In this document: positions 2,210 to 38,347 of the stretch, piece by piece
How positions within the stretch are numbered: the stretch's first letter is position 1
Layout: every line of letters begins with the position of its first letter
Source: Capitulum mitella
Taxonomy: Eukaryota > Arthropoda > Thecostraca > Pollicipedomorpha > Pollicipedidae
NCBI GenBank assembly: GCA_030062745.1
Contig: CP099843.1
Coordinates: 23,676,122 to 23,740,121, forward strand
DNA: 64,000 nt
Reading direction: 5' to 3'
Notes under the pieces: model-generated
Database searches by the model: none
What the model was told of the DNA's origin: nothing
The model's input: only the letters and a program-made list of their open reading frames with translations
Translations under genes and position numbers: made by a program

Positions 2210-2519
2210 CTACTTTGGCATTGTCAACCCATTTTTGTTGACATGGTACAGCCCGAAGTTTAACTCGTCTGCGCCGACTCCGTCTTTAGCCTGCTTAATC
2301 GCAAGCGAGTTGAAGCAGCCTGGATGTCGACTCTTCCGTTTGCAAGGGTACAGGAAGCAGTAGCGCACCAGCAGGTTGAAACTCTCCAGCGTCGTGAAGT
2401 TCTTTTGCTTCATGTACACGACGAACGACGGTCTGAAGACGTCAGCTGAGCTCTGCTTCTCCAGACTGATCTCCTGGTTCACCAAGTCGGCCATGCACTT
2501 CTTCTCGGTGACGAACAAG
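2210..2519 (-). CDS. GT31 beta-1,3-galactosyltransferase-like, terminal exon
   Basis: Proposed last coding exon, 102 residues to a stop. It begins LFVTEKKCMADLVNQEISLE, has FRPSFVVYMKQKNFTTLESF and then LLVRYCFLYPCKRKSRHPGC, and ends GLTMPK. The acceptor GTCTTGTCGCTAG lies before a C that completes the phase-2 AG of exon 5 as Ser, so the join is DITPLN-S-LFVTEKKC. GT31 enzymes typically end with 50 to 100 residues holding cysteines and a hydrophobic strand like SFVVYM, which fits; NFT is a sequon. The tail is less conserved in the family, so the assignment rests on phase, strand, order and the weak C-terminal pattern. The total without exon 1 is 380 residues, usual for the family. The exon is repeated at 58399..58708. 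Confidence 0.65.
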
Positions 2520-4128
2520 CTAGCGACAAGACACCCTGGTTAGCTGTGACTGTGACTGTTAGTTGTGACTGTGCCTGACACACTGGAGATCTACGGACAC
2601 TGGACCAAACACTGGGGACCCACGAATGGCTGGCTCACAGTGGAGCCCAAAGAACACAGACTACACACTGGGGACCACAGTTATGGACAAGACAGGGGAC
2701 CTATGAAGGTGGACCGTATATTGGGCACCCACGACCCGTGACGGGCCGACGGCAGAGCGAACGCAGCCGAAACAAATGAGCGACTTATGAGCCGCATCAT
2801 TCTGATGGTTCATTGTTTCATAAATATGAAACACATTTGTCTGAATATTAACACACGAGTTACTGGAAATTTTGTTTTTGTTTTGGTTTTTGGTTGATTT
2901 TTTTGGGGTTTTACGGGCACAATTTTCGAACGACAAAATCCGGTGACCCAATGTTTTCATACCCCTACCAGAAAAAAACAGGCACATTTTGACAAAAAAA
3001 ACAAAAACAGTTGACCAGGTCTCCATAGAATAAATGTTACACTATGCTTATATACCATCTCAAAATAGAAGGTAACCATCTTCATCAGAATACAGGTATA
3101 GGGCATGATATAGGCCTGACAGTCATAGTAAATGACTACGCCATAGTGTATGCCAGGTCATAAGCTGAATCAAAGACGTGGTTTTTATGTACCGTCAAGA
3201 CCCCACCACCTATCTTTTCCTTTTGACATCACTTGCAAGAAGATCATGAGGCATTAAACAAAGACCAAAGATCAGGCCACGCAAGCCATAAGTGACCTGC
3301 AGCGAGGTTAACACCGGTCGCTGGCTAGCTTTGCACAGAGCTAATTAAGCCACCTATCCGACACAAATCTAGTCTAAGCCACCAGAATATTGCATCCACA
3401 GAGAAACCTATGCTACTTTTAGAGTCCTCGTAAAATTCTTTGTCCGAGCCCATAAAATGATTGAGGTTCGGGTCAACAAATAACTTGAAATCGTCACATA
3501 GGCTGGCCTTGGGTCGCGTCTTGCAAACATATTGCTCATCGTGCAAAATGAATTCATTTAATGCCACATATAAAAATGTAGACTATTCTCACCCTACAAA
3601 TGCGTTTCTAAGCTGTCGGCCAAAAACTGTCACTTTTCGAAATCTGACCTGATGTGCGACAATATCGGTGACCTTTAAGTTAACAGATGGGAAATATCTG
3701 AGGCATCAGAATCACAGACCATGTATTGCCGTTCGAATCGGTGAAATCGTACCATCGGTTCTCGAGATATACACACAGGTGACACTCGAGACAGGTGATC
3801 AAAAACCAAATTAAAATAAAACAAAAAAGCAAAAGAATAGATGAAAAAATATATCAAGTGCCTGGTGATTGGTGAAATACCCCAGTCAGCGCCGGGTTCA
3901 ACACCATGACATCATGCCGTTGTGGAATTTCTACGAATAGATACTGAACAGTTCAATACTGTCATAAAGGACGCAGGGACGTAGCCAAGGGGGCGACATG
4001 GGGACCATGGCCCCCCCCCCTGAGCCAAGCGGTCTACACTAGATACATGGCGATTTCGCATGAATACGTAATAGTGATCATATATATATATTGCAAAAAC
4101 AAACATTATATGTTTTCCCGTGCATTAA

Positions 4129-5339
4129 CCCGCGCACGACCATCGGTCCCTTTCAAACATGGGCGACTGGGGGGGGGGGCAGTTGGTCGCCCCCCTCTAA
4201 CTCACGAACAGTTGGTCGCACGCTAAAAATAAGCACACCGTTGGAAAGCTTGTGACGAGTAGAGCTCGAAACTGGCCTCATTTTTACTGTTAGACAATAC
4301 GTAAGCAATTTACGCCTTATATATGTTTTTTTCATGGCCGACTGCATGAGAGAAATGGCCTGAATCTCAAGGGCTGTGACTAAAAACGGCTAGGTAAAGG
4401 CACCAGCGCACAAGTAAAGGTCCGCGGATGCCGATACACGTCTAATTTCCCCAGATTTGTTCAATATATACGCCGGAACGTTGAGTTAAAGACACGGCAT
4501 CTCTCGCGGCAGCTCTAGGCGTGCGCTGCTGCCGTATGCGGTCACAAATTGACAGGAACTTTAAGCGTCTCTTTATTTTCGCGATATTAGCCTCGTCATG
4601 TAAATTTTATTGATCTGAATGGTTCTTATGATGGTTTCTCATGCTAACGTTTTGGAAAAATCCGTTATTCATCAATCTACACAAGTGGCGCAGCATTATT
4701 TGCGAGAGCCTGTTTATTGCCAAAATATGCTATTTTTTCAAACTTTTTGAGGTCCCTGGTATGACTTACGTCTGTGCAAGCTAGTTCTGCCACTTTCTAC
4801 CCATTCTGTGTAATTCATCGCCGATTTTGACGGTGGTACATTTTGGCTCACCACAGTTATTCGTGACCTGACCTCAGGTCAATGGCTGGGAGTCATTGAT
4901 ACTTTGCCCAATGACGGTAATTAGATGTCTGGTTCACTCCACACAAAAAATGTTATGAAGTATTGCGTCAATTTCCGAAAAAACGACGACATGTCTTAAA
5001 ATTCGGCTTGACCTTAGGTCAATGACCCGGAAAATTCCGAAAAATCTAAGATAGCAGATTTGTTGCATCTGTTACGTTCACTAATCCCTGAAAGTATTAT
5101 TGAGATATCTTCTTTTCAAAAAAAGTTAGAGGGCGCTAAACGTTTTTGGACATAGGTCCGCTTGACCTGACCTAGGTCAGGCACCTGACCTGGCCTGAGG
5201 TCAAAATTTTTACACGAGATGTAAAATTGATGAAGCAAAAGGTACACGACGTTTTGTGACTCTGTGTTTGTTGGTTCTCTCGCAATACCAAAAAAACCTC
5301 AGGAGGGGGCAGTCAACGGACCCCCCAGTCGGCGACGGG
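4129..5339 (+). mobile_element. TTAA element, family B, copy 1
   Basis: 1211 bp flanked by TTAA (4125..4128, 5340..5343). The ends are CCCGCGCACGACC and GGCGACGGG, with subterminal CGACTGGGGGG and GGGGGCAGT in inverted order. It has no coding capacity. The interior has several paired half-sites such as TGACCTGACCTCAGGTCA (4864..4881) and TGACCTGACCTAGGTCA (5163..5179). The same insertion is present in the right arm (60375..63142), so it predates the outer duplication. Confidence 0.85.
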
Positions 5340-6181
5340 TTAAATATGAGATAAATTGCCTGAAATTACTGCCTTTTGTTGTACATTTCGTCATATGCCT
5401 GTGACACACGACAAAATTTCACATTTGGATTCTCCAGGAAGATCCTGGCGTCGTGCCAGAAAGAATGAGTTACAAAATCATTTTTGTTTAGAAAAATAAA
5501 ACAAAAGGCGAAACAAAAAGGATCATTTGTGAAACAATGAATGGAAGTCCCTAGCCGCACTCTCCCAGTGAAAAATGGCTTCAATTCGAATACCAAACTG
5601 ATTGCCAGTGCATTTCATATATTTTTGCGGCAAAATCAATCTGTGACTGGCGGCCAGGGACTATCCCAAACCAGCGAAGGAGCGTGGGGGAGGGGGCAGG
5701 GAGGACCCATGGCCCCCATTTTTTGTAACATGAACATTAGTCTTATGCGGAAAACTTTGGCCCCCCCTTTCCGGTGTTTCATACACCCGAGCTACCTCGA
5801 TCCGGTCACTGCCAGTCAACTTCCCTTTAAGCCGTTCGTTTTACCAGAGTTCTTTGTCAATATGGTCGCTATATTATGATGAGCATTCCCTTGGCCGAAA
5901 CGAACCAGATTCGACGACAGCTATGCCAGACGTCCCTTGTCATGAAACAAATGGCCTCCGATCAAGAGTGGATGTGTAAGCATTGCTTCCGACTCTGCAA
6001 CAGTATTAATTTTCGGTTGTATACTTGCGTGAAAAGTAAGCCGCCCAAAAATGCAGATGGCTCGCGATCTCACCCAACCCTCAAAAGGATTCCAAGAGAA
6101 TACGAACGTCTCTATCGCCCCAATCGGTCCGCGCCCCGCCACGGCCACCGTAGCGATAGGAATTTTGCAGCGGCTGAAATA

Positions 6182-7929
6182 CGAACTACAGCTGGCCTGT
6201 GTTGAAGCATCGTCAGAGCGGCGTCCGACCGGGAATCTCTTGGGCGGCTAGAAACTGTGACAAATCACGAGAATATTTCTGTTTTATCTCACCACTCACA
6301 GTCCGAACACGTAATTCTGCATCTATTAATGTCTTTATTTCCAGTGGGGCAAGAAGGATGACTTTGGTCAAATTTGCCGGATTTTATGCCTTTGATATGA
6401 ATGGTTTTACAAGATGTCAGGGATCGAGGCCCGTGTTAAGAAGAACATGTTGCACAGACTCCGACCCTTACACCCGATCACGCAATGCCAGGTAACGGCT
6501 GGTTTTGCGGCGAAACTTTAACGTGTCTCCAGGGACGTGACACGACCGTGAGGTAGCCAGTTCTTTTAAGGCCTGATGATAGCAAGGTCTAATTTTACGA
6601 AATAAAACTGCTACAAAATAGTTCATGTCAGTTTTGACAAGGTGCTGTGAGTTTCAGAGGCGCAAGTAAAATCGTTCAAATGATGCTTAAGAAATACTAA
6701 CGGAGAGGGGGTCGAATTAACTCCCCGTGGCGGAGTGGGTTAATAAGTAGTCATCCCTCAGGTTGAGACATCGTCATGCACTCGTAGACCATTCAGCCAT
6801 GACCGGTTGTATGGATCAGACTAGCATGACTTAAAACTAAAACTTCACTGAGTTTCCCTGCATGCCTTAGTCACAGAGGATATCGTCTTTCCGGAGTCAC
6901 AAGTGACACATTTAGGGCCAAATAAGCCTAAAATCAATTTATTTATCACATTCAGTGCCAAAAACTCGCATGGGAACGTTCAAAGGTCAAAAAGTCACCT
7001 AAGGTCCTTGACCTCGATTGACCTTGAAAAGGTCATTGACTTTTTTCAAGTGACTTGTTCGCATGCGGACTACGATTCTAAACCGATTTCTTGCCCAGCA
7101 TCTGCCGTTTATGCGTACCTATTGCTCTGAAACAGTAAAAAAAGACATTGATGCAAAAACAGCTCTGCAAGCCTTCAGTAATGACGTCATACCTCGATGG
7201 CCTGAAATGACTGGGTCACTCTTTTCTTTCAAAACATGTACAATGGACGGATCGTTAGTTAGGCCAAATTTCACGGGGCTGTCGAGCGCCGTTTTGCCCT
7301 GGTCATGGAAACGCTGTTTGAGGGGGGTGACATCCACCATTTGTCCAGCGAAGGTTAAGGCATTATTTCTTTATCATTTCGCGCATGCGTAGAACGAATG
7401 TCTGAAGGTTAAGCATTGATGGACCCAAAGTTCCGAACTACAGAACGTTGCCCCAAGGGCCATTTGGCAGTGTCACACAAGACAAAGAAATTTGAATAAG
7501 GGATATGAAGTGTGAAATTAGGGGAAAAGAAATAACAAATATAGATGTCCTTTGATTTAAAACACATGTACAAACTGTGTTTTCCCGCATGTCTTTGCCG
7601 TGTAAGTTTTTTTTTTTAACTAAATGTCACCGCACCGCAATAACGTCAGGATACATGACACATTGGACGTCAGCGGAGCCAAAGGAAACTCTGTTGCTGG
7701 AATTAATTTGCTGGTTAAGCTAAGAATTTACTGTCGCGACAACAGCGCTGGCGTCTCATTTTCTAACAGAGTGGAGCCGGCAGGACTTTGTACAAAGTGC
7801 GTCGTTATCGTATTCTTTCTTTTTTGTAAACTGATATTTTGTTCTTCTGTCTCCCATCATTGTCTTTTGCTCGACCATTGTTGCGGGAAAGATGTTGACA
7901 ACCACACAAATTTCGTTATGTCTGCACTC
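6182..7929. other. Intergenic, no gene recognised
   Basis: Downstream of the GT31 3' part in chromosome order, inside its last intron. It holds a near-palindrome flanked by TTAA at 6717..6743, a cluster of TGACCT half-sites at about 6985..7045, and frames of up to 160 residues that show no family signature. Confidence 0.5.
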
Positions 7930-8700
7930 GTTGCAGCAGCGTGGCCGGGGGTCTTAGGGGTCTTAGGGCCCCCGAAATTTTCCGATGGACCCCCTGGTGT
8001 TGGCCTAAAGGGGCTCCCTGGCTGGGAAAGACAAATCCACTCCTCCGCAAAGGGCCCCCAGACCAATGGCAAAGACCCCTCTCGCGGAAAGGGAGATACC
8101 CTCTGACGGGAAAAGGTAGGTGGGTACCCCTGCATGTACCTATTAAAAAAACAAATGCCGGAAAGGATGCTCCTCTGCAAAGGAGACGCCAGCTAGGAAA
8201 GGTCCTCCTGCCATGGGACGGTGTCGGTTTGTTCGGGAAGGGCCCATGAAGGGCTCCCCTGGAATTTGCCTAAAGGGGCCCCTGGCTGGGAAAGGCAATT
8301 CCACTCCACCGTAAAGGGTCCCCAGACTTCAGACAAAGACCTCTCTGGCAGGTACCCGGGTGCCCCCTGGAAGGTGTCCGTGGGAAAGGTAAATGGGCCC
8401 CCGGCATATACCTGCCAAAAGGCAAATGCGAGGACAGGAGAGAATGCTCTGCAAAGGAGCCGCCAGCCAGGAAAGGTCCTCCTGCCATGGATGGTGTCGG
8501 TGTGTCGGGAAGGGAAACGCAGTGACGTAACGTAAGCCAAAGGACCTGGGGGTATTATCATCCCAACTCTAGAAATTCTTAAGAGGGAAAGGGAATCCCC
8601 TGGACTGGGCCGCTGGCATGTCCTAAAGGGCCCCAATGTCTACTGACCTGGAAATGTCAGTGGACATTGGGGTCTTCCAAAGATACATTTCGTGCGGGGC
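7930..8700. repeat. Degenerate GC-rich minisatellite with a period near 266 bp
   Basis: Runs of GGGGCCCCT-like cores. A longer unit repeats: CCTAAAGGGGCTCCCTGGCT at about 8003 and a close match at 8269; CTCTGCAAAGGAGACGCCAG at about 8171 and again near 8446. Open frames here on both strands are by-products of the repeat. A hairpin closes the field at 8631..8672. Confidence 0.75.
8631..8672. other. 17 bp inverted repeat with 8-base loop
   Basis: CCCCAATGTCTACTGAC, eight bases, then GTCAGTGGACATTGGGG. Sixteen of 17 pairs match and the other would be a G-U pair in a plus-strand transcript. Too short for a typical microRNA precursor. Confidence 0.7.
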
Positions 8701-9229
8701 AGTTCCTGGCAGGAAAGGTATCTCTGCCCTGGAATGACCGTCGGATGCCAGAGCCCGGCATCGTGGCGTCAAAACCAGGCGATCATCAAAACAATGCAAT
8801 CGAAATGTAGGCAGGTTGACGCCTGGCAGGCTGCATGACCATTTAGATCAAGAAAAAAATGGAAGCTCTACCGCTCTGCCGCTCTACCCCAGTGGCCAGG
8901 GCAGTAAACATAGATAATCCAGGCCCTCAGTCTCAAAGGAAAGCTTGCTCAATATGGGGAAGAAACGTTTTTTTTTTTTACCAAGTATCTCTAATGTTCT
9001 AACCATGGACAAAGACTTCACTTTGAATCCTTTTGAAAGGGTGCGCGCATCCCCTCTCAATGTTCATTTCAGCCTCTCCCAATGATGATTTTGCCCCTCC
9101 CACATATTGAAGTGGGGCCCACAACAGTATTCCAAGCCCATGAATGAAATGACGTTTAAATTTGATTAAATATTCTGCAACTTTTTTCAGGCGGCGGTAC
9201 TAGTCAGCAACCAGATCCAAGTTACAGAA
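8701..9229. other. Intron, nothing recognised
   Basis: Mixed sequence between two GC-rich repeat fields, with a poly-T run near 8970. Confidence 0.5.
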
Positions 9230-10920
9230 AGACCTCCCTGTCTGGTTAAGAGAATCCTCTCCTGGAAGTTTTGAGGGCTTTCTAAAAATAGTGAGGACAA
9301 CCTCAAAAGCTTGAGAGCCCAACAGCATATTTCATGAACCCTCTAGATGAATTCAAAGGAATCCTCTAGAAGAATTTAGGGCGCTCTACTAGGGGCTTTC
9401 CGGTCCTAGGGGCCTTTCTTAAACATTCTTGGGGACCCCCTCGAACAATCAGAAGAGGATTTTTAAACCAACGAAGAAATGATTGAGGGGCCCTAAGAAA
9501 ATGCTTGAGAAGTCCTCCGAAAATAAGAGCTATCTCGAAATCCGAGGGGTCTAAAAACTGTCCTGGGCCCTTTGGATAAACTTGAGGAATGACGCTGATC
9601 CAGGCCTGAGAGTTTCCTTTTGAATTCATGTCGAGGACACGTTTTTTGCGACGCCTCCAGATTTTTGGGATATGACGAAATTAACAAGAAAAGGCAGCAA
9701 ATTTAGACAATTTATCTCATATCAAATGCACAGAAAACATATAATGTTTGCTTTTGCAACGTCTACATGATCGCTATTACATGGCCATGAGAAATCGCCA
9801 TGTATCTAACGTAGACCGTTTTGCTCAGGGGGCCCTGACCCCCATGCCCCGCCCTTGGCTACGTCCCTGCGGGCTTGTCGAAACGCCTGAGGGCCCACAG
9901 AATTCCAAAGGGCCCTTTAAACTACTTTAAGGTGGGGCCTCTCCCCAAGGCCTAAAAGATTCATTTGAAATGAAATTCCTTCAAATTTCTTGCAACGAAA
10001 TCCTTCAACTCATTTCAAGGGTTTTGCTATTGTAAGAGGGCACCTCGGGCATAGAAAGGATACACCGGACGAGGAAATGATTGAGGTCCGTTTGAAAATA
10101 TCAAAGACTCCCTGAAAAGATCGACATCCCCACAGAAAAACTCTAAAGGCTCTTTAGATACATCCAAGGAGCAGCCCCCGAAAATCTAAGGGACCCTCAA
10201 TGAATTCCTCACGAGGGCTCGTTGGAGTTCTTGTGCTGCCGTCAAACATTTGAGAGGCCCATTGGTATTTCGAAGGCTCTCAGAAACATTCAGGAGAGGA
10301 GTTTTTAATCGGATGAGGAAATGTCTGAGGCGCCCCCGAAAACATTAAGGGGCTTCTCAAAAGCCTTGAGGTTCCACACAAACTCGAACAATCCTTAAAG
10401 AAAGGAAGGGACTTCCGTAACTTCCCTTAAATTTGTTCGCAATGCTTTTGATATATTCAGAGGCATCTCATATATTCTGGAAAGGATGAACTGGACAAGT
10501 AAATGTGTCATGGATAGTCTGCAAGGCGTCACTAAAACGTTCAGAAGCCCACAAAAAATCCTAATGGGGACGCTTTCTGTAAATTCAAGGAAAGGCACTC
10601 CCGGAAGTGTACCTGAATTCATCTAGAGGACCCATTAAAATGTTTGCGGACCCCTTAAACCTTTGAGAGGGCCTTCTGTACCTTCAAGGGACCCACATTC
10701 AGGAAAGTGGTTTTAAGCCGGACAAGACTTAAAAACAAGGCTTTGTGGGCCTCCTGAAGATACCGAAGGCCCCCTCAAAAAGCTCGAGGGTTCCACGAAA
10801 AACTTCAATGAGCCCTCGAGATGAATTCAACGAGGACCCTAAAGACCACGGGGAAGGTCCCGTCCTGAACATATCTAGAGGGCCCATGGGAGTTTCAGTG
10901 GATCTTTAGCTTTCTGGGTA
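9230..10920. repeat. Long degenerate GC-rich repeat field
   Basis: About 1.7 kb of imperfect units of roughly 30 bp with GAGGGCCC / CTTTGAGGGG patterns. A landmark of the form GGAAATGATTGAGG, preceded by a purine-rich AAAGGAT and a CCGGAC-like stretch, recurs near 9451, 10053, 10294, 10479 and 10701, so a higher-order unit of about 190 to 240 bp is likely. No gene. Confidence 0.7.
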
Positions 10921-11069
10921 GGCTCTTGATCATCGTATTTGCAGAGAAATTCTTCACAATGCCCAAGCGTGGTTTAACAATTTATCCTTAATGTTTTAGG
11001 GACTTGCTGGCAACACAAAGTACCCTCTCCTTGATGGCATTACAACAACTCTAATGACGCTTTGGATAT

Positions 11070-11072
<3 letters not shown>

Positions 11073-11107: not shown

Positions 11108-11112
<5 letters not shown>

Positions 11113-15189: not shown

Positions 15190-15693
15190 TGTTCTCAAGC
15201 TGCCTGACAGTGCTCATGCCAATACTTATGCACATCATAAATTCCAGTTTTACTTCTGGCATGCAATGGAAGATGACGTACGTGAAGTCGGAACTAAAAG
15301 CAGGCGATCCCAGCGTCCCATCAAAGTACAGGTCAATATCGCTGCTACTAGTCCTAGCAAAGGTCGCGGAGGGGCTGGTGGCTGATAAGTTGATGATGTA
15401 TTTTACGGCCAACCATCTTCTGCCATCGTCAGCACAACATGGGTTTCGACGTCATTTTTCGACGGAGACTGCTCTGCTGTGCACCTCTGACGGAGCCTGC
15501 AAAGCAATGGATGCTGGCCAGGTGTCACTGCTGTGCCTGCTTGAACTGTCCAAGGCCTTCGGCTTGTAAACCACATCAGGCTGCTGAACCGTCTGGGATA
15601 CCACAGCGTGTCATCTCCATGGATTAGTAACTATCTGAAGGACCACCTACAAGTTTTACGTTGTCGGAAAATCACCACAGCACCTGATCTTAA

Positions 15694-16888
15694 CCCTATT
15701 CCCGGAGGGCTAGACGGTATGGTCGATTCCCGGCAGGGGGGACGGATTCGGCCCCCCTGAGATCTCGAGAACTACTTGTCCGATTTCATCACAACAAACG
15801 GCAATCGATTTGACGTGACGTGAACTACATTTTTATACAAAAAAATCAAAATTTCGAAATTTGTCGATACAGGGGGGCAAAAATGTCAAAATGGGGGTAC
15901 TTTTGGACTTCTTATAACTCCATTGTTCATCGACCGATTTCGATGAAACTGGCATGAATCGAGAGATTATGGATAGGGCTTTTACCATGGGTCCGCAAAT
16001 CTGAAATTTTGAGAAAATTCATGGGCGTTCACAGGGTTTCAAAAATAGGAGGATTAGTTTTCTAACAAATGAATGAACAAAAGACGCAAACACCTTTTTT
16101 TGGCTTCTGCTAGTCATGTTATACTAAAGAAGTACAAATCGCATTACGATGTTTGTATAATGTTAGCATAGGCGGTGCCAGGGACATGAAAAAAGGGAAC
16201 TGTCATGATCGCCCGTTTCTCAGATCGACTTGTGACCTTTGACCTTAAATGACCTCCAGTGACCTTGGGGTTACTTGGAATGATCTCGTGTGCATTTAAT
16301 ATTATCTGTAAACGTTTTCAATCATTTGAATTCACTCTATTTCGAAAATTCCATTTTATGGCTATTGCGATATAGAGTACGCGCACTGACATTTTAGGTC
16401 ATAGCTCCGTGACCCGACCTAATATCAAGCTGAAACTTGGTACACAAGTAGAAGGTATCGTTCGACGTCATATATATATTCGGGGTTTGGCATTTGAAAA
16501 AAACGGCGCCGAAATTATTGCGAAAAAACAAATTTTGAACTTTGACCTTGACCTGACCTTGTAAAATGACCTCAGATAAACAAAATTAAATCTGCACATT
16601 TCCCAACTATACATCCATATAAAGTTTTAACTTCTACCTTTAAAAGTCTGTTTTTGGCAAACATTTTCCTTTTACCCTCAACACGGCCAAAAATGGCATG
16701 AGGTGCCTCCGAAAAACGTTGCCTGGCTCCGTCCCTGAGTAAAATAGAATTTTGAAATTCTGTCATGGCGCGTACAAAGAATGGCTAGGAAAAGTGACCA
16801 AGTTTCGTGAAGTTGCGTTAAAAAGCATGGAATTGGCAAGCAGAAAACCCGAGGGGGGCGGATTCAGCCCCCCCTGCCGGGAATAGGG
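15694..16888 (+). mobile_element. TTAA element, family A (non-autonomous, piggyBac-type ends), copy 1
   Basis: 1195 bp flanked by TTAA (15690..15693 and 16889..16892). It opens CCCTATTCCCGG and closes CCGGGAATAGGG. The longer inverted ends include a GGCAGGGGGG block, with about 20 extra bases near the left end. TTAA target duplication and terminal CCC/GGG are typical of piggyBac-type elements. No transposase frame is present. The interior holds many TGACCT half-sites. It splits the reverse transcriptase region of a LINE fragment (15190..18060). Confidence 0.85.
16233..16245 (-). promoter_or_regulatory. Perfect DR1-type nuclear receptor half-site pair in a TTAA element
   Basis: TGACCTTTGACCT, the reverse of AGGTCAAAGGTCA, the direct-repeat-1 form bound by RXR/USP partners and HNF4 in animals. 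It is followed by two more TGACCT sites within 30 bases. Function here is not shown; an identical site is at 57227..57239 in another copy. Confidence 0.35.
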
Positions 16889-18060
16889 TTAAGGGTCTTG
16901 GCGTTTTGCAGGGGTTCTTCCTCCGCCCGCTTCTGTTTTCCGTATACACCAGCTCTCTAGCCGACTAGACAAAGCAGCGCAGCTTGTTGAGACTGCCAGT
17001 TACTCATTACCAGGAACCCCACTGATGTGAACAGCCTAACTGCAAGCGTTGAGGGAGAACGCAAGACAATAACTCAAGACACAACACGGCTCAGCTCAAA
17101 TGGCTTGAAAATGAACACTGAAAGACCCAGCTAATCGTCACCGGTGAAAGACCTCGCGTACAAGTACCGTCAGCCGGCTTAGATAAGAAAGGAAAAAAGG
17201 TGACAGCTTCTCAGAACGTGAAGAATCCGGGAGTGATTCTTGACTCCAGTCTATCTCGAGCAGAGCATATTGAAGAGGTAGGAAGAAGGTGCACTGGGCT
17301 TCTCATGTCACTAGTCCACCATCGCCGTCTTCTGCCCGATGCTGTGATGGGACACATCGCAGTATCACTAGTATTGCCCCATGTATGTAACTTATTGTCT
17401 TACTGTCACAGCCTTACTGTCAAGATGAAAGTCAGAAATGGCTTAACTTCGCGGCTCGAGTAATTTTGGTTTGAATGGACACGAAAGGGTTTCGGAAGCC
17501 AGAGCAGAACTAGGTTGGTTAAATATTGAAGAACTAATGGAGTATTATCAAAATATAGTTGTGTACAGGGCCGGAATAAGCAAAATCCCGGAGAGTCTAG
17601 AAAGAACTTCTTTGTCTGATAGCAGCTTGCACGGCCTTAATACAAGATAGAATCACTGGCTTCACTCGCCACAAACACACACTGGACATCGGAAGAGAGT
17701 TAGAGCATTTAGGGTCGCTAAGAGGTGGAACGCCCTTCGAGAGGATGTGAGAAGCTCGTCTACCCCGTTGGGATTAAAAACCAAAGCGAAGAAAACGCCT
17801 ATTGAAAAAAGATACCTTTAAGGATAAGCACTACGCAGTCAGATGATATTAGATATTACTTCGCACTCTCGTATTACTGCATGTCTAAGCAAGTGTTGTT
17901 TTGTACATCAAGCATTGCGGCGATATCGTAAATATGTTACTGGTACCACAGATGTGCGCCATTGTATACTGAGGTTCTGAGATTGTATACTGATGGGAAC
18001 AGTAATAGCCACCTAACGTGGAGCGTCTCAAAGATGTAATAAACCCATACGTGCATTCAT

Positions 18061-20640: not shown

Positions 20641-21980
20641 TCCGCGCACGACGGTTCCGACCATGCCCAAGGGGGGGGGGGGAGTTGGCCGCCCCCGCTC
20701 TAACTAAGGAACGGTTGGTCGCACGATAAAAGTAAGCACACTGTTGGAAAGCTTGTGACGAGTAGAACTCATAACTCGTCTCATTTTTAGTTTTAGATAA
20801 TGTGTAAGCAATTTACGTCCTATTTATGTTTTCTCATAGCCGACTGCATGAGACCGAGAAACGGCCTGAATCTCAAGGGCTGTGACCAGTAACTGGGGGA
20901 GCAGTTGGGTCGATTGGTGTCAGGTACCTGACCTAGGTCAGGTCAAACAGACCCATGTCAAAAAAAGTTTAGCGAACCTCTAACTTTTTCGCAAAACAAA
21001 ATATCTCAATCATACTTTCAAGGATTAGTCATCGTCATAGATGCAACAAATTTGCTCCTCAGATTTTTCGGAATTTTCCGGGTCATTGACCTAAGGTCAA
21101 GCCCATTTTTGAGACATATTGTCGTTTTTTTCGGAAACTGACGGAATATTTCATAACATTTTCAGCGTGGAGTGAAGCAGACATCTAGTTATCGTCACTG
21201 GGCAAAGTATCAATGACTTACAACCATTGATCTGAGGTCAGGTCATGAATAACTGTAGTGGGCCAAAATGTATCACCGTCAAAATCGACGATGAATTACT
21301 CAGAAGGGTAGAAAATGGCAGAACTAGCTTGCACAGACGTAATTAATACCAGGAACCTCGAAACGTTAGAAAAAGTAGCATATTTTGGAAATAAACAGGC
21401 TCTCGCGAATAAAGCTCCGCCAACTTTGTAGATTGGTAACTAATCATTTTTTTCCAAATTTAAGCATGAGAAACCATCACAGGAACCACAAAGATCAATA
21501 AAATTGACATAGATTGTCTTTTTTCGCGAAAATATAGGAACGCTAAAATAAGTTCCCGTCAATTTGGTACCGAATACGGCAGCGGCGTACACTGACAGCT
21601 GGCGGGAGAATTACCGTGGCTATCTAAAAGTTTCGGCGTATATATTGAACAAATCTGGGGAAATTAGACGTGTATCGGCATCCGCCGACCTTTACTTGTG
21701 CGCTGGTGCCTTTACCTATGCGTTATTAGTCAAAGCCCTTGAGATTCAGGCCATTTCTCGGTCTCATGCAGTCGGCATGAGAAAACATGTATAGGGCGTA
21801 AACTGCTTACATATTATCTTAAACTAAAAATGAGACCAGTTTCGAACTCTACCTTTCACGAGCTTTTGAACGGTGTGCTTATTTTATCGTGCGACTAACC
21901 GTTCGTGCGTTAGAGGGGGGGCAGTCAACTGCCCCCCCCCAGTCGCCCATGTTCGGAAGGGACCGACGGTCGTGCGCGGG
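20641..21980 (+). mobile_element. TTAA element, family B, end-swapped copy
   Basis: Flanked by TTAA (20637..20640, 21981..21984), but both ends are the 5' type of family B. 20641..20890 matches the start of 4129..5339, and 21980 read backwards also matches that start and continues for about 1 kb. The native GGCGACGGG end is missing. The result is a 1340 bp element with inverted arms of about 250 bp. A near-identical copy at 26798..28137 is part of the inner duplication. Confidence 0.75.
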
Positions 21981-22099
21981 TTAATGCAGACTTTTATACC
22001 TTACCTATATTGTAATCCCCATAGTTGTGCTATATTTGTAATTCGGGCTTCATTCCTGTGTAACAACAGCGAGAAGGTGCGAAATGCACACATTCTGAC

Positions 22100-22258: not shown

Positions 22259-22758
22259 NNNNNNNNNNNNNNNNNNNNNNNNNNNNNNNNNNNNNNNNNN
22301 NNNNNNNNNNNNNNNNNNNNNNNNNNNNNNNNNNNNNNNNNNNNNNNNNNNNNNNNNNNNNNNNNNNNNNNNNNNNNNNNNNNNNNNNNNNNNNNNNNNN
22401 NNNNNNNNNNNNNNNNNNNNNNNNNNNNNNNNNNNNNNNNNNNNNNNNNNNNNNNNNNNNNNNNNNNNNNNNNNNNNNNNNNNNNNNNNNNNNNNNNNNN
22501 NNNNNNNNNNNNNNNNNNNNNNNNNNNNNNNNNNNNNNNNNNNNNNNNNNNNNNNNNNNNNNNNNNNNNNNNNNNNNNNNNNNNNNNNNNNNNNNNNNNN
22601 NNNNNNNNNNNNNNNNNNNNNNNNNNNNNNNNNNNNNNNNNNNNNNNNNNNNNNNNNNNNNNNNNNNNNNNNNNNNNNNNNNNNNNNNNNNNNNNNNNNN
22701 NNNNNNNNNNNNNNNNNNNNNNNNNNNNNNNNNNNNNNNNNNNNNNNNNNNNNNNNNN
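22259..22758. other. Assembly gap of 500 Ns
   Basis: Exactly 500 unknown bases, which suggests a placeholder rather than a measured gap. Sequence to its right restarts in the middle of a family A element that is complete to the left of it. Confidence 0.99.
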
Positions 22759-26797: not shown

Positions 26798-28137
26798 TCC
26801 GCGCACGACGGTTCCGACCATGCCCAAGGGGGGGGGGAAGTTGGCCGCCCCCGCTCTAACTAAGGAACGGTTGGTCGCACGATAAAAGTAAGCACACTGT
26901 TGGAAAGCTTGTGACGAGTAGAACTCATAACTCGTCTCATTTTTAGTTTTAGATAATGTGTAAGCAATTTACGTCCTATTTATGTTTTCTCATAGCCGAC
27001 TGCATGAGACCGAGAAACGGCCTGAATCTCAAGGGCTGTGACCAGTAACTGGGGGAGCAGTTGGGTCGATTGGTGTCAGGTACCTGACCTAGGTCAGGTC
27101 AAACAGACCCATGTCAAAAAAAGTTTAGCGAACCTCTAACTTTTTCGCAAAACAAAATATCTCAATCATACTTTCAAGGATTAGTCATCGTCATAGATGC
27201 AACAAATTTGCTCCTCAGATTTTTCGGAATTTTCCGGGTCATTGACCTAAGGTCAAGCCCATTTTTGAGACATATTGTCGTTTTTTTCGGAAACTGACGG
27301 AATATTTCATAACATTTTCAGCGTGGAGTGAAGCAGACATCTAGTTATCGTCACTGGGCAAAGTATCAATGACTTACAACCATTGATCTGAGGTCAGGTC
27401 ATGAATAACTGTAGTGGGCCAAAATGTATCACCGTCAAAATCGACGATGAATTACTCAGAAGGGTAGAAAATGGCAGAACTAGCTTGCACAGACGTAATT
27501 AATACCAGGAACCTCGAAACGTTAGAAAAAGTAGCATATTTTGGAAATAAACAGGCTCTCGCGAATAAAGCTCCGCCAACTTTGTAGATTGGTAACTAAT
27601 CATTTTTTTCCAAATTTAAGCATGAGAAACCATCACAGGAACCACAAAGATCAATAAAATTGACATAGATCGTCTTTTTTCGCGAAAATATAGGAACGCT
27701 AAAATAAGTTCCCGTCAATTTGGTACCGAATACGGCAGCGGCGTACACCGACAGCTGGCGGGAGAATTACCGTGGCTATCTAAAAGTTTCGGCGTATATA
27801 TTGAACAAATCTGGGGAAATTAGACGTGTATCGGCATCCGCCGACCTTTACTTGTGCGCTGGTGCCTTTACCTATGCGTTATTAGTCAAAGCCCTTGAGA
27901 TTCAGGCCATTTCTCGGTCTCATGCAGTCGGCATGAGAAAACATGTATAGGGCGTAAACTGCTTACATATTATCTTAAACTAAAAATGAGACCAGTTTCG
28001 AACTCTACCTTTCACGAGCTTTTGAACGGTGTGCTTATTTTTATCGTGCGACTAACCGTTCGTGCGTTAGAGGGGGCAGTCAACTGCCCCCCCCCCCAGT
28101 CGCCCATGTTCGGAAGGGACCGACGGTCGTGCGCGGG
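26798..28137 (+). mobile_element. TTAA element, family B, end-swapped copy (second assembly copy)
   Basis: Same structure and flanks (TTAA 26794..26797 and 28138..28141) as 20641..21980, with only small differences in poly-G lengths and a few bases. It ends about 115 bp downstream of the DxD exon in gene direction, within intron 4 of the GT31 gene. Confidence 0.75.
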
Positions 28138-28256
28138 TTAATGCAGACTTTTATACCTTACCTATATTGTAATCCCCATAGTTGTGCTATATTCGTAATT
28201 CGGGCTTCATTCCTGTGTAACAACAGCGAGAAGGTGCGAAATGCACACATTCTGAC

Positions 28257-29600: not shown

Positions 29601-32600
29601 TCTTAGACCCGTGTCGCGGCTCCTGCTCACACCTGAAGATGGCCAAAGTCTGCGACATCTCTCCCGGCGCTTCCGTGTCCAGCGCGTTATTTCCTTCACC
29701 CAGGCCAGTCATTTCATTATTTTCTCCGTTGACTCTGCTGCCTCGCAGATTTGATGATTTGACCCCACGGGCAAGTATGACTTACATTTTGATCGACATC
29801 AAATTTCGATATCGATTACGTGAACTTCAAACAGTTTGTAGACACTTCATTCAATCTCTCAACTGCGACACGGGAAGTTCAGTTTCTATGACAGTAGGTA
29901 GACGGCCAGATCGTTGATTGATATAAGAAATCGGAGAGAGCACACGAAAGGAACTGACCACCTCTCCACACCGTTATATATACGGCAGCCACACGAGATC
30001 TCATTGAGGTTCACCATCAGCATAGTTACTGGATACAACCAGTAGGACCAGTACGACGTCCTGTGGGGCGCAAGACGGGCAAGGCCTATTTCGTGAGTTT
30101 CCTACCTCGTTTCCTTTTTTCCTACTCCCGTTATGCATTTCGCAATATATAAGATATTTATCAATCTCAGTCAATAATTTTCGTCCAAATAATTGCGAAT
30201 TCAAACGTCACGCGCGCCCTTGATATTGTTCGTTCCCATTACTGAGCGGTTCAGAAACACACACGGAAAAATTGGGCTAAAAGTAGAAAGCTCTCTTCCG
30301 AGATGGTTTTGTGGAAGAAAGAGTTTGTAAGACGACGCACTGTGAATGCAGCTACACAGAATTGAAAGCACTGAGCTATTTCCTAGGAAAAATTACAAGA
30401 TTTCCCCAGTGATTTGCTCCGAGTGGTTGCAAAATTACTCGCCTCCAGAAATCGTTGTGGCCGGGATGATCAATTCGATTTTTTCTGCTAGCTGAGGTAA
30501 GACCTAGCCTAAGGCTTCGCACGTAATCATTGGCAAACGACTGTCTGTGTGGCTGATTTCTAGCGGGAGCATTCTACTAGTGTTCAACCCAGTCATGGTA
30601 CTCTTAAACTGTAATTCTCCCCTCCCCACATACACACAAACACGCACGTACACAAGTATCCATCCCTGGATAACTTGCACGGTACGTCACATCCTTTGCA
30701 GTCTCACAGAAACATCGTCGTATGTCTGCTGCTAAGTGCTTTGGAAAGCAGCACGGAACATTTCCTACGGAAGGTGAAAAGCCGCTTCTACAATTTTACG
30801 ACTTTGGTAGGTTGATGTGTCGACGGCAAATGTCACGTCACGGTAGCTTGTAAGCAAGTAAATATTTGGGGTTAGACGAAGAAATAATATGCTTGCAAGA
30901 AGACGAAAAGATGATGTACTAGATGAATAAATTTATGTTTTGTTGGAAAGAAATGAAGCCAGGTCAGTAAACGGGCGCTACGACTGTAACAGACAACATA
31001 GGACAATATATGTTTTGGTACGCGAACGGGAAAATGACTTAACTTAGACTCTGACAAGGACTTTCTGCGTGAAGTAAAGAATAAATTCAGCCAAAAAAAC
31101 AACATTTGTGTTCCAGCATAATGAACACGGTTTTGCACATAAGCAGGCAATATAAATATTAAGATGAATAACTTACAACGGGTAAAGTGCAGATGAAGAA
31201 TTCGGAGAAAAGAAAGGAAAGAAAAATGGACAAAAAAACGGTTTGGTTGTAATACAACAGTCACGCGACGGAGAAAGATACAAGAAAACACGGTACACGA
31301 AAACACGAAGCCCTTCTCTGGGTCACCGCAGAAACATAGACTCGTGAGTAATATTCTAATCCTCAATAAATAAGCAATAATTGTAGGACACGTACTACTA
31401 ATCTTACTCGTACGCACGATGAGTAGAATGTTACCGCTGCGTGAACAGATGCCGCTCCTTATCCCAGCTTTTCGTTAGGGGGCCAGTTCAGAGCCCAACT
31501 TTTGACGGCAGACCAGAAATGGTCTTAAGAGGTAGTGCCGGGCCATTTGAAATGAAATAAAATAAAGTAAACACATTATTCCTAGGTTCTCTCCATTCCC
31601 TCAAATGGTTTCTTACTTTTTTCTGTTATGTACTGACATTCCAGCGGTATCTCGACTTTTTGTGGTTCTACGATTGTTAAGTAGAGATCGCTCCCACGAG
31701 GTGACCTCTAGCCGGCACAGTTGGTTCGTGGTATTTTCTGGGATGTCGTCACCGAGTGCATACTTGTCTACTTCGCGCCCGTCACCGAACTGTTTGTTAC
31801 TAATACCCCTCATGAAGCTGCTTCTGTCGGTATTTTAACTGTTGCATTTGTGTCATTGTTCATAGCACCTTCTCATGCATTTCTGCCAGCTTAATATCAA
31901 CTTGATAAATTTTATTCGTCCGCCCTCTCATTCTGATTCTCCCCGATTCAATGCCCGGAACCACTTTTAATCGGCACATCCGAGTTCTACTTTTACCTTA
32001 TTCCTTCATCGAATAGTTAGACAATGATCGGTTCTGATCAAAGGAACTCTATCCAAAAATCCAACCCAATCTGCATTTTTTTGTGCTATGCTTATCCGTA
32101 ACTCACCAAGAGTGACCTATTTGGCACGAACGCAAATGCACCGACTGAGATAATACAGTAACCCGCATGCCATTTTACATGCGGCGCGCTCTCACGAAAG
32201 TTAGAGGTTTTGTCCGCATAGCATAGAATTGCCTGGATAGCATAGCATAGCACAGAAACCGTGTGACTAGCTTTTTTTTGGGCTTACACTAAGTCAGGAC
32301 TTTCTTGTCCACTTTGCCTCAGGCTTATGTTGTCAGTGCGTAGCCGAAAAAAAATGCCGGACATTAATTTATTAAAACGTTTTTTTAAATGACCAAAATT
32401 TAATGACATAGACCAACGACGATATGCAGTAGTTTTCTTCTTACGCAAGATAAACTATTTATAACTAGATAAAGCAGCAAATATCAAAAAACATGCAAAA
32501 ACGTTATTACGCAGCTTGTTGCGAACTAAACACCATTCAGCATGGGGCAAACTGGCAGTCTAGCTGCTTTTCTAGTTAACGAGGTAAACAAGGTGCAGCA

Positions 32601-33975
32601 ACATTTTTATCTCATTATATGACCCAAAAAACTTACAAAAACTTGTGCATAACAAGATACCTGAAGAAATTCGGTTCAATATCTTGCATCATTGTTTTAT
32701 AAACGTCGTTTAATGGTGCAAAGGCTCCAATAAAATTCATGGTGTTTCGGCAAGTAAACAATGCTTACATCGCCGACCTGCAATGCCTCAAGTGATGTTC
32801 CCTGTGATATGAGGAAATAATAAATCTTCCGTCCTAGGGAGGAAGCAGGCCATACGCCTTTCAGGGGAATGTAGGGCATTGCACTGCGTAGTGTGTCTGT
32901 TCTTACATAGGGAAACGTATTTTCAACTTTCTATATATATAGATATATGCAATAATACATGTCATACATAAAAGTACAATATAATTTCGGACTAAAAGCA
33001 CCATCTGTGGTGTTCCCAACATGGTCTGGAGGCCTCCCAGTGAGAGATATTTACATCATAAACAGCATCATTAGCGGCGGAACATCCGAAGAGGGGGTGC
33101 AAGGGAAGGCGGGGGAGGGGTGCAAGGCACTTTGAAGTAGTTTGTTTATAGTTAACGTGACAGGGTAAGTGCAAAATTAATATTCAAGGGGCGCAGTATC
33201 ACAACAAGTTAGCAATTCTCTTGCCCCTATGTGCCAGCTTTCCGGAATCCTCGTTGCAACGTTTCATTGCCAAAGAAATGTAGTGTTGGACCTTATGTCT
33301 TCAATAAACCAGCATTCTTAAGGAGAGTTTCGTGGAAAGGTTCAGAAGTCCCCCCCACTCAAGGGAGGCCACAGCGCCCCAGCACCCCATAAACCCATTG
33401 CGCCATTTGTAGGATGATGTAGGTTGAAATGAAATAGTTTTGCGGCGTCTGGTAAACGTGCAGCAGCTGCATCCTTTCGTGGAGCTTCATGACGTTTTGC
33501 ATCTAACGTAACGCTACTTTGTTATGCGCTAAATGCGAGATTTTCCTTTCGCTCATGCCTACGGCTGGAGGCAGCTGGTCACAGATTCGTCTCTTATTTG
33601 GTTCTTATTCCCAAGAAGGGAATAAGACCCTCCAGGTCTCAACCCCCGCGGTAAATAGCTCACTCGTATTCGCGCTAGTAAATAGCTCAATTAACAACTC
33701 TCCCTACACAGACGTAGCCGCAAGTTAGAAATACCTCATGGATCCCAACCCAGATCCAGCAAATGTACGTCTATAGTGTCTGTCAGGTTTTAGCTTAGGT
33801 CCTGGCTGAACTGCTTTAGCTTAGAACGTGTGAAAGAAAGCTTATGGTATATCGAACATGATTCAGAACTCAAAACGATGCCAGTCAAAAACAAAGGAAT
33901 ACGATTTAATCCAGCATGTTTGAGAAACGAAAAGAAAACGGCGGACAGTCTGACAAAAAGCTGAGGCCTACTCAC
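29601..33975. other. Intron 3, no gene recognised
   Basis: AT-richer sequence without visible splice-linked coding. It contains the fold-back end at 32510..32605 and a C-rich strand stretch near 33350. The 181-residue minus frame at 30872..31417 is hydrophobic and low in complexity, with no family pattern. Confidence 0.5.
32510..32605 (+). repeat. Single end of the fold-back family
   Basis: GCAGCTTGTTGCGAA then GGGGCAAACTGGCAGTCTAG and AAACAAGGTGCAGCAACA, matching the left end of 44351..45131. Confidence 0.6.
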
Positions 33976-34106
33976 GTGGCCTGAGGACAATACGTGACAG
34001 CCCAGTCAAGCGCCATGATGTGCTTATAGGTCATGTTGTGGTAGGAGTCAAAGAAGTCGCCCTGCACCAGGTCTTGATGATCCTCATGCTCGCTCACAAT
34101 GTCGCT
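33976..34106 (-). CDS. GT31 beta-1,3-galactosyltransferase-like, exon 3 (region before the DxD)
   Basis: Forty-three codons plus two bases. The peptide reads SDIVSEHEDHQDLVQGDFFD and continues SYHNMTYKHIMALDWAVTYC. This is the GT31 segment that precedes the metal site: an acidic run, a D-F-x-D-x-Y-x-N-x-T-x-K block, then W and C. The acceptor is CTTTCTCCACAG and the donor CAC|GTGAGT. The exon begins in phase 0, matching the end of the upstream exon, and ends in phase 2. It contains an N-glycosylation sequon (NMT). It lies in a TA-rich intron context, close to a long CT microsatellite. The match to the family is unambiguous by eye. Confidence 0.9.
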
Positions 34107-34375
34107 CTGTGGAGAAAGGTTCGCGAATATTATCATGCACCGATTTCCAAGGTTTGCAGTGATATTGAGCACGATCCTGAAAATAGACAACTTTCGATTT
34201 ACGCCTATATATATATATATTACATTTATTAAAGTCATATTCATATATGTTACATTTATTACATAAAATTATTTATTATTATTATGTATATTATTCATAA
34301 AATTATAAATCATTTATCAAAATTTATTACATAAAAATATTACATATATTACATAAAAATATATATCAAAGGCAT

Positions 34376-34561
<186 letters not shown>

Positions 34562-36539
34562 ATGCGTTTCATTGAAGACCAAGGCGTACTGACACTTGAT
34601 AAGCTTCTTGTTATTTTGTTCGGTATAAGTCATAATGTTCGTTTTGTCTCATTAGGTAATAGAAAGATAATTGTAGGAAAATTGCACTGTCGTTTATTGT
34701 TTGAACCTTCCGCCGTTTTTGAAGATCCACATTCCATTATGAAGAAATGGAATACACTGTTTGGCTATCGAGTATCGACATAAATAAAACAGTTTCATAG
34801 TTTGCTTCATTTTGACAGTGGTGTCACGACAACCACTTTATCACGTTGTGTAACGCTACACGTCGCAGACGGACTCCCGAAATGCACATGAGACGAACAC
34901 AGACGTAGCCTTACTAGGCATAATCTGGCACAGAATACTAAGATGATAACCTCTACCATGAGCAAAGGGAAACTTTGAATTTTAGAGGCCCTGACCACAC
35001 AGGAAAACTCATTAATTTTAAACAGCTAAATTTCCGCTTCTGTAACACTTCAGTTATTTAAGCGGTGAAGGGCAGTGTTCTTGCATGGTGTGGAACCTGT
35101 GTAATATTTTATGTAAGGTGATCGTCATAGGTAGAATTCAACAATGGAAGTGTCTTAAATTATGACTACCACGGCAATTTTGTCAATTAGGCCATAGACA
35201 CAGAAGGGTTATACAAAGGTGCGGGTGCCATGCGGCCAAGCGGGCTTCAGCCACCCTAGTTTGTTTGCAGTTTAATATTGATCCAATGGGAGTTGACTGG
35301 AAAGAATCGGCCTTACACGTCTCTCGGCTCACGAGCTGAATAGGAGTTACCGTACCCCTGATGTTATATCACCTTCTAAAAGGGTTATATTGTAAGCGTA
35401 GTCTTCTGTTTCGAACACATAGACTTCTCACCTGCAGCTCTATTTCAGCCCTGCTTGGTACAACGACTCCATTACACCCGCGCCGCCCGAACCCAGTTTC
35501 CAGGCTCTACGCTTTCCGCGACCCGGCGACCCGACCTCGACTGCACACCACGTGACCAGCGACGCCTCGACCAATCCGCACATGTCCGGACAGGCTCCAC
35601 GCCGGCCTAAGTGCCCTGTACCCGCCGGGCGCCGGTGCTGACCGGCCCGGGACGGACGGAACACGGACGGACGGACCGGCACGAACCGGCGCCGGCCAGG
35701 GCGGCCGACCCCGCATTCAGAGGGGGATGGGCAGCACGTTCGAGTCGCGCAGCTCCCTACAATATATCCTTCTATGTCTATGAATCAGACGATGAAATTA
35801 TGTTATTTGTGCCAATGGTCGATAGCTAAACAGTGTATTCTTTTTTTGATTCCATGTGCATTCCAGAACCTTGAGAAAATGAAACTACAAGCGAATATGT
35901 AATTTTGCTACAATTATCTTTCCATTACGCAATGAAACCAAACGAACATTACCACTTGTCCCACAAATGAACAAGGACAGAACACCACAGATTGATAACA
36001 GTGCCAGTCTACGCAATCTAGGGACTGCTATTTAAAATCGAAACAGGTAATAGTATGTTATGCGCGCTTTTAAGCACCTGAGATTGCACTCATGGCAGGT
36101 GGTCGAGAACAAAGTAACCGAATCGTCTCATGATTCCATTAAAGAGAATTCACCACCTTTTTCAACAAAACTGAGCTGGCACTGGAATCGAGACCACAGA
36201 CCAGTGGAAGGTCGGAAATCAAAATAAAAAAAGCCGTGAGATAACATTAAGTCTGCTAAATAAGTATTGGAAAAAATTAAATATGTCTAGGACTATTACA
36301 AGCGCCTTCGTTTTATGTATCTTTTTGAAACATATTACCACTAATCAACATTTTTTAAAAGAAAACTAGCATTCCGTTGAGCTTTCATGGCATTTTCTTA
36401 TGACATGACCTTCTGATTTACTCTTAGCCTAAAAGCAAATTGTCAAGCTTTGCCCCATATTGCAAAACATAATTAGTAGCGTAGCGTTTTGAGTGTTCGT
36501 CGGTCCTGCGTCAACAATGTCGACGTTACGTTTGTTGTG
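34562..36539. other. Intron 2, no gene recognised
   Basis: Unassigned apart from the CpG-dense island at 35440..35740. Confidence 0.5.
35440..35740. promoter_or_regulatory. Short CpG-dense, GC-rich island in an intron
   Basis: About 300 bases much richer in G, C and CpG than their surroundings, with GGACGGACGG repeats and GGCGCCGG blocks, between exons 2 and 3 of the GT31 gene. It could be an alternative promoter or a decayed repeat. The frames in it on both strands look like effects of base composition. Confidence 0.3.
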
Positions 36540-37080
36540 ACGCCGACGGGATGCCCCCACAGCTCGGCAAGGGCCCCTTCATGCCAACGAGGGACTAACT
36601 ACAGGCAGGAGGCCGCTTCCGACCGACAGGGGGCCTCTACAGGCCGGCAGGATCCCATAGAACATCAGGGGTCCCCTCAAGGCCAGAAGGAGCTCTTTGA
36701 GGGCTGACAGAGGCTCCAAAAGCCAACAGCGGGCCTTACACACCGGCAAGAGGTCCTTAAAGGCCGGCAGGGACCCCCTGCCAGGGCAGCAGGGGTCCCT
36801 GCAAGGCCAGCAGGGGGCACTACAGACCGGAAAGAGGCCCCTACTGACCGGCAGGGGGCCCCCGTAGGCCTGCAGGGGGCGCCCTGTAGGCCGGTAGGGG
36901 CCTCTACAGGTCAACAGGGTGCCCCCTGCATGTCTACGGGGCTCCTACAAGCCGCAACGGGCCCCCATGGGCCAGCGGGGAGCCCATACAGGCTAGCAGT
37001 CGGCCCCCACAGGCTGGCGGAAGGCCCCTACAAGACGGCAGGCAGCCCCCGACAGGCCGACAGGGGCCTCTCCATAGGCT
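36540..37080. repeat. Degenerate GC-rich minisatellite, ~28 bp units
   Basis: The clearest of these fields: units like GGCAGGGGGCCCCTACAGGC repeat with drift for about 500 bp in intron 2 of the GT31 gene. Frames of up to 111 residues rich in Gly, Pro and Leu arise from it and are not taken as genes. Confidence 0.75.
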
Positions 37081-37976
37081 TGGATTTATATGTTTCAGCT
37101 TTTGCTCTCTTTTGTCTGCCGTTATTCGAGCATTTTAACAATGACTGGTTTTTATATGAATAATTTTCTAGCCTCGGCGGAGTGGGTCCTTTTGAACATT
37201 TCAAGGGGTGTGGGGCCCCTACGATCCCCCTGGCTGCGTCCCTGCCCATCGCCTCCCCTCCCTCCAAGGATACGCCTCTACAGGAGAATGAAACGTCATT
37301 TAAACAATGGTCCCCAGCATACCATGGTGGGTCCAGCATAGTACCGCTGGCCCTACTTCATCACTGAGGAGGCTGAAATCAGCATGGGGCCCTTAGGAGG
37401 ACTGAAATCAGTACTGGGGCATGTGCCCCCTCAAAAGAATGCAAAATGATGCCCCTGAGAAAAGGTGAAAGACAGACGAATTGGCATACAAAGCCTTGCG
37501 TGAAGTGTCATAACCATGATGGCTCATTGTACAGATTCTGATGGTGAACTCTTCTTACCCCGTTCCTACCTGTCTGTACGTCTCTGTCCTATAACCTGTC
37601 GTGTTCATACCCGTGAGATGACCCTAAACTGCATTCTTTCCCGTGAGATGACCCGTACAGCTAAGCCTCCAACCTGTTCGACAAGCCTACTTCTCACCGA
37701 TTCTCATTTGTTTCGCACCAATACAGGAATGGGAAGCATATCAGTGGGTCAATGGGGTGGAGAGTCATCCCATGGCCATGGACTTCTGTTTTTGTTGCTG
37801 TTGCTACATTTGTTGTTGTGGGTTTTTCTTTTTCACCCGTGAGACGGCCCTTAGCTATGTTTCTAACGTCTGCGATGACTTGCCACTGCGTTTTCATCTT
37901 TGCGACAGCCAACATCATTTTTTTGCACCAACCAGTCGCCTGCTGTTAGCCATCACCCCACTGACTCGCCGCTCAC
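37081..37976. other. Intron 2 next to exon 2
   Basis: Contains a GGGGCCC-type remnant near 37200..37440 and T/G-rich sequence before the exon. CCCGTGAGATGACCC occurs twice near 37610..37655. No coding region recognised. Confidence 0.5.
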
Positions 37977-38347
37977 CTGTGAGACGACCGGCTGCCGGCT
38001 GCCGGAGCCGGGCGCGGCGTCAGCCAACATGAACAGCCGTCGGACGCCGAGCCGGCGCAGAAGGAGGTCGGGCATCGAGCGGCGCACGGAGTGCCTGCCC
38101 TCCGGGTGGCGCGGGTCCGAGTGCACCACAAGCACGACCCGCACCGGCTCCGAGCCGCACGCGTCTGTGTTCACCAGGAAGCGGAACCGGCTGAGGTTGA
38201 CCAGCGGTCGCGGCGGCGGGTAGAGCGCGGCGTCCTGCTGCTGCCGGGCGACGCTCTGCAGCAGCGTCAGCGCCAGCAGCAGCAAACCGCAGCAGCAGGC
38301 CAGCAGTCGGCGGTGCCAGGACGTCGCCCGGCTGGGCGCGAAACAGA
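37977..38347 (-). CDS. GT31 beta-1,3-galactosyltransferase-like, exon 2 (signal anchor and stem, start of catalytic domain)
   Basis: First recognisable coding exon of a Golgi-type glycosyltransferase of family GT31, which transfers galactose or a related sugar from a UDP-sugar to a glycan. Translated on the minus strand it gives a basic stretch (SWHRR), then a Leu/Cys/Ala-rich hydrophobic segment (LLACCCGLLLLALTLL) that fits a type II signal anchor. A stem with a Pro-rich part and an N-glycosylation sequon (NLS) follows, then VRVVLVVHSDPRHPEGRHSV, which matches the family pattern of a hydrophobic strand followed by an Arg-rich helix. The acceptor reads CTGATCAG and the donor CACAG|GTGAGC, a strong site, ending in phase 0. 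There is no in-frame ATG before the anchor, and an in-frame stop lies just upstream of the acceptor, so the start codon must be on an exon further upstream. The family assignment is firm; the exact sugar and acceptor cannot be told. Confidence 0.85.

Follow-up and report, generated by a model that had tools for sequence, protein, structure and literature searches.

Does a 64,000-nucleotide stretch of Capitulum mitella contig CP099843.1 (C5:23676122-23740121; hereafter the window) carry a complete gene for a GT31 glycosyltransferase, split into five short minus-strand exons dispersed over 36 kb, as the original prediction had it? We put the probability at roughly 85% that this gene (gene A) is a real, probably functional animal GT31 gene, which on its sequence would encode an enzyme of ~385 residues with type II topology in the Golgi membrane and which is the 3'-most of three head-to-tail copies. 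Its start probably lies in a separate 5' exon, and its span was overstated by ~6.2 kb owing to unmerged contig ends.

The chain of exons was recovered as it had been proposed. The five minus-strand exons (E1 to E5, Table 1) agreed with the earlier model within a few bases at their borders, and the junction phases were 0/2/1/2 in both. All four introns are GT-AG, and the joined exons form a single open frame up to the stop codon at 2212-2210. E1 is bordered by the acceptor TTTCGCGCCCAG, followed by C, and by the donor GTGAGC. The description of the gene as complete-looking did not survive, and neither did its 5' limit. Followed upstream from the anchor, the frame of E1 meets an in-frame stop (38354-38352) before any ATG, and position 38347, where the gene had been drawn to end, is neither a splice site nor a start codon. 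Because the pyrimidine-rich acceptor TTTCGCGCCCAG ends at 38332, E1, which starts at 38331, is best taken as an internal exon that needs two codon bases from an exon upstream; the model as drawn thus missed its start exon. Two variants of the chain were rejected. Another E2 acceptor at ~34176 (TTTTCAG/GATCG) leads to a stop in the frame that E1 leaves open, and a regular expression for another RxxIRxTW exon, run over the window in six frames, hit five places, of which E1 alone fits.

Next, we examined the family assignment. The joined exons were searched with Pfam Galactosyl_T (PF01762), one of the checks proposed with the original prediction, and the five-exon protein matched at E 2.1e-35 (122.7 bits against a gathering score of 23) over profile positions 41-193 of 195. 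E2, E3 and E4 cover consecutive stretches of the profile (41-81, 84-149 and 152-193), and each of them exceeds the cut-off of 23 by itself (38.5, 23.8 and 32.7 bits, respectively; narrowly in the case of E3). E1 alone and E5 alone gave no Galactosyl_T match in Pfam. Profile positions 1-40, which fall to E1, are unmatched in gene A, while one of its tandem copies (gene C, described below) was matched from position 21 on. A Pfam match of E5 to LktC (E 0.0019, 18.6 bits) was below the cut-off of 25 and was taken as chance.

Among the solved structures, the top match was human B3GALT5 (GT31; PDB 8zwp) at E 1.5e-25, running from residue 49, so that E1 is alignable there, to residue 273 at the E4/E5 border, where the aligned stretch stops. 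The next was human B3GNT2 (PDB 6wmm, 7jhk) at E 4.9e-13. The E4-E5 tail gave no GT31 match among the solved structures even at E ≤ 10. On these scores, the profile and structure matches are far beyond chance. The DxD motif is found as VKMDDDT in E3, aligned to KGDDDV of B3GNT2, and the xED motif with its catalytic Asp as WIDDVY in E4, aligned to IDDVY of the same enzyme. The protein has one membrane anchor, with a hydropathy peak of 2.3 over 19 residues, and a short N-terminal tail (~18 residues if the start exon proposed below is right), which is the layout of a type II protein; the Golgi location is predicted. Both the GT31 assignment and the exon order given in the original prediction were confirmed. 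Outside this genome, no relatives were confirmed in viral contigs, prokaryote genomes and phages; these collections hold no animals and are hence uninformative on novelty.

We also performed a profile search of the genome (16 contigs, 477 Mb) with PF01762 at E ≤ 0.001 and obtained 38 matches. Nine of these are on C5: three are exons of gene A, and six belong to two further copies. A region of 244 kb (C5:23656122-23899999) was read and searched with tblastn for the exon series. The complete series came up three times, each time with its exons in order on the minus strand, and the three genes (A, B and C) stand head-to-tail. The three copies have the same exon lengths, the same splice sites and open frames, the sole exception being the end of E5, where gene C stops earlier; none of the three has lost DDD or the xED Asp. 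Genes B and C match Galactosyl_T at E 4e-35 and 3.8e-36, respectively. In exons 1-5, A and B share 98-100% identity, with no difference at all in E2 and E3.

At E ≤ 1, E5 had five matches in the genome. Three are the C5 copies and one is on C14; the fifth, a weak one on C2 (E 0.146), contains two stops and was taken as chance. The C14 match (C14:21429487-21429732, E 3.9e-14) lies ~4 kb beyond E4 of a relative on that contig. The C14 tail has its acceptor at the same place and in the same phase as E5 and keeps the pattern RYC...C...C-x-N; the splice borders of C14 exons 1-4 were not checked base by base. Exon 1 of the C14 gene carries its own in-frame ATG (MRRPGLL...). E5 stands behind E4 in all four genes found with this exon series, so that the terminal exon belongs to gene A and not to another gene, the case that the original prediction had named as fatal to it.

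A segmental duplication (1693-4091 / 57883-60305; also 288-1699 / 55274-56682 and 4320-6179 / 62112-64000) bears the last exons of A and B; its two stretches closest to the tail exon show ~96% likeness. The A-B homology breaks at 38375, 44 bases upstream of E1: E1 is 98% alike, compared to ~81% for the block of the start exon. This is the pattern that copying of the 3' part of A from B, or its conversion to B, might leave.

The candidate for the missing start exon (E0) emerged from a block upstream of E1 that genes B and C have as well. This block (42206-42551 in the window) is the only upstream one common to the three genes outside E1 and repeated elements. The ATG, the 29-base open frame and the phase-2 GT donor of E0 are kept in 3/3 copies, with an in-frame stop shortly upstream of the ATG. 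A point against it is that the shared block contains three open ATG-GT combinations; of these, the start at 42348 has the better donor. When joined to E1-E5, it gives proteins of 385 amino acids for A and B each, and of 361 for C. We estimate that this predicted start has about two chances in three of being the true one.

The span of 36 kb is correct for the sequence as assembled, where E1-E5 occupy 36,122 bases, but it is inflated by an overlap of contigs. The window has a single run of N, a scaffold gap, and the end of the contig to its left is the same sequence as the start of the contig to its right (Table 1). The overlap begins with 170 identical bases, continues with a 107-base stretch present on the left only (16660-16766), and then runs for 5497 columns at 99.5% identity. 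The left contig stops within the copy on the right, and the right contig begins within the copy on the left. To judge from this arrangement, two contig ends overlap and were joined across a gap without being merged, which accounts for ~6.2 kb of the span. Merging would reduce E1-E5 to ~29,965 bases (~30.0 kb), and E0-E5 from 40.1 kb to ~34.0 kb. The overlap has left behind a truncated second copy of E3, which could mislead a gene finder.

The ratio dN/dS was 0.57 between A and C (Fisher p 0.004) and 0.52 between B and C (p 0.0008); by this measure the gene family is under moderate constraint. In E5, A and B differ at 3/310 sites compared to 76/2082 columns of the flanks (Fisher p 0.0098), and all three of the E5 differences change an amino acid.

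Could the repeated sequences have other origins? A genuine tandem duplication of recent date that included part of E3 would also place a 6-kb repeat at the gap, and the 107-base indel and ~25 smaller differences between the two copies speak for it. However, the contig ends are arranged exactly as in an unmerged dovetail, and among the three gaps in the 244 kb the one in the window alone shows such an overlap, the other two having none. We regard this duplication as very improbable. It is also unlikely, to a lesser degree, that A and B are two haplotypes set in tandem by the scaffolder and not two genes. The near-identity of their exons 1-5 and the ~96% likeness of the flanks of the tail exon would fit haplotypes, but the start-exon blocks reach only ~81% likeness, in surroundings that differ. 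No gap separates the tail exon of B from exons 0-3 of A, all of which lie on one contig (22759-64000, no N), and gene C, which has the same orientation, is clearly an older copy.

Several observations weigh against an intact gene A that starts in E0. E1 has no start codon. The coding part of E0 is identical in the three copies at 20/29 columns, compared to 54/64 for the upstream part of the exon and 105/139 and 86/114 for the flanks. A scan of gene A by itself with a donor-score limit gave phase-2 candidates at 40888-40794 and 41195-41170, and not E0. The coding sequences of A and B differ at 20 positions, 18 amino-acid-changing and 2 silent, with 7/20 in E0; because this is indistinguishable from neutral change (p 0.19), recent constraint on gene A is not supported. 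Finally, no His was seen by eye in the first 60 tail residues of A, B and the C14 gene, where the tail alignment is weak. The two candidates from the scan favour an exon series that is real with its true start exon elsewhere, or with non-AUG initiation. Neither of them, however, lies in a stretch matching gene B or C upstream of E1 (E ≤ 1e-5), whereas E0 lies inside one with its start, frame and donor kept, and we consider a start outside E0 possible but doubtful. One may also ask whether the three C5 copies are decaying genes that lost the start codon still present in C14 exon 1, E0 being a chance resemblance. The E1 exons of A, B and C all lack an in-frame ATG before the anchor and share an upstream in-frame stop, and the C14 ATG, the neutral-looking A-B differences and an E0 conserved no better than its flanks go with decay as well. 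Against this, the six exons are open with intact splice sites in 3/3 copies, dN/dS is below 1 for both A-C and B-C, and DDD, the xED Asp and the ATG and phase-2 donor of E0 are all retained in the three copies. Decay is thus an improbable explanation, and we retain the reading of gene A as a real and probably functional gene.

Table 1. Positions of the features in the window (all positions are those of the window)
Feature	Position	Strand	Remarks
Candidate 5' exon E0	42412-42320	-	acceptor-like TTGTTGCAG before 42412; ATG 42348-42346; coding 42348-42320 (29 bases); donor GTACGT; phase 2 into E1
Exon E1	38331-37977	-	rest of cytosolic tail, membrane anchor LLACCCGLLLLALTLLQSV, stem, Arg-rich start of catalytic domain
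Exon E2	34106-33976	-	DFFDSYHNMT block
Exon E3	28447-28257	-	DDD metal-binding motif and YPNYVSG
Exon E4	12427-12286	-	WIDDVYVTG, with the xED motif; catalytic Asp assigned from the family
Exon E5	2519-2210	-	C-terminal tail with Cys; stop codon 2212-2210
Exon E5 of gene B	58708-58399	-	inside the window; other B exons beyond it, C5:23746223-23799787
500-N scaffold gap	22259-22758		the only N run of the window
Left contig end	16490-22258		same sequence as right contig start
Right contig start	22759-28415		same sequence as left contig end
Truncated, frame-broken second E3 copy	22258-22100	-	end of left contig; assembly artefact
First repeat family	15689-16893, 56678-57890		
Second repeat family	4121-5189, 20919-21988, 27075-28145, 45396-46533, 51059-52211, 62112-63149		

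The original prediction had singled out the Asp that replaces the usual Glu in the first position of the DDVYVTG motif. This substitution turned out to be no peculiarity of gene A: human B3GNT2 has IDDVY, and eight GT31 entries of this genome share DD. We scored the motif in 27 GT31 entries of this genome, partly by pattern and partly by eye, and found DD in 8 (A, B, C, the C14 exon, L007, L029, L030 and L032) and ED in 17, with 2 unreadable. A tree was built from 24 sequences; the partial or split-frame loci L031, L039, L042 and L045 were left out, and L044 and L046 gave no matching frame. The DD genes came together, with a support of 84 for all eight against the rest, 95 without L029, and 100 for A, B, C and the C14 gene. 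The nearest relatives of the C5 copies are the C14 gene (100) and then L007 on C9, L030 on C2 and L032 on C16 (95). All of these have the DD motif followed by VTG; in L007, L030 and L032, unlike in gene A, the catalytic domain lies in one open frame without introns there.

PMC7948508 and PMC7185993 assign the role of catalytic base to the xED Asp (D333 in B3GNT2). Because the base is the second acid and the first position is not the base, and because the DD genes cluster and B3GNT2 shares IDDVY, we view the DD change as a group trait at a tolerant position. B3GNT2 resembles gene A in IDDVY, in DDD and in this base. It is, on the other hand, the weaker of the two structure matches, and it has its own C-terminal metal-binding His, H376, for which no counterpart was found in gene A. 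B3GALT5, the best solved match, has EDVFVG where gene A has DDVYVTG, with one residue more. No paper was found for DDVYVTG and five variant strings in the literature searched.

PMC7948508 and PMC7185993 describe metal binding by a C-terminal His in many GT-A enzymes, and PMC7185993 reports the loss of this His in several GT-A clades, with water able to replace it. Judged by eye on the weak tail alignment, the tail of gene C has one His, at a different place, and a tail His is present in 17/17 of the ED entries of this genome and in L029. The metal-binding His has likely been lost from the tail of gene A. A wider suggestion, which we put forward tentatively and with considerable doubt, is that these genes represent a GT31 subgroup of an animal lineage, marked by a split gene, an IDDVYVTG site, a Cys-rich tail, the absence of the C-terminal metal-binding His and tandem expansion, and possibly by a shifted use of substrate or metal.

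The window also holds other repeated sequences. Two interspersed repeat families of ~1.1-1.2 kb, 76-91% alike in the window (Table 1), have many further members across the C5 array, in introns as well as between genes, and both are probably mobile elements. A plus-strand frame at 61390-61986 has a DDE_3 transposase domain (E 3.1e-16), and a tandem array with a 153-base unit (2.6 copies) is located at 40496-40898.

The product of gene A is most likely, from its predicted domain and motifs, an active, inverting, metal-dependent Golgi beta-1,3-glycosyltransferase. The N-terminal anchor would hold the enzyme in the Golgi, the DDD motif would bind a metal ion together with the UDP-sugar, and the second Asp of IDDVY would deprotonate the hydroxyl of the acceptor. 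A beta-1,3-linked sugar would then be added with inversion; the closest relatives of solved structure add Gal or GlcNAc. The locus is ordinary in kind, an added member of the well-known GT31 family, and it illustrates that gene models can be broken by long introns and by contig overlaps left unmerged. Its main value, for annotation, is the corrected gene model with the proposed start exon. For the GT31 family itself, the tandem copies together with the likely loss of the C-terminal His offer a modest lead on its diversification.

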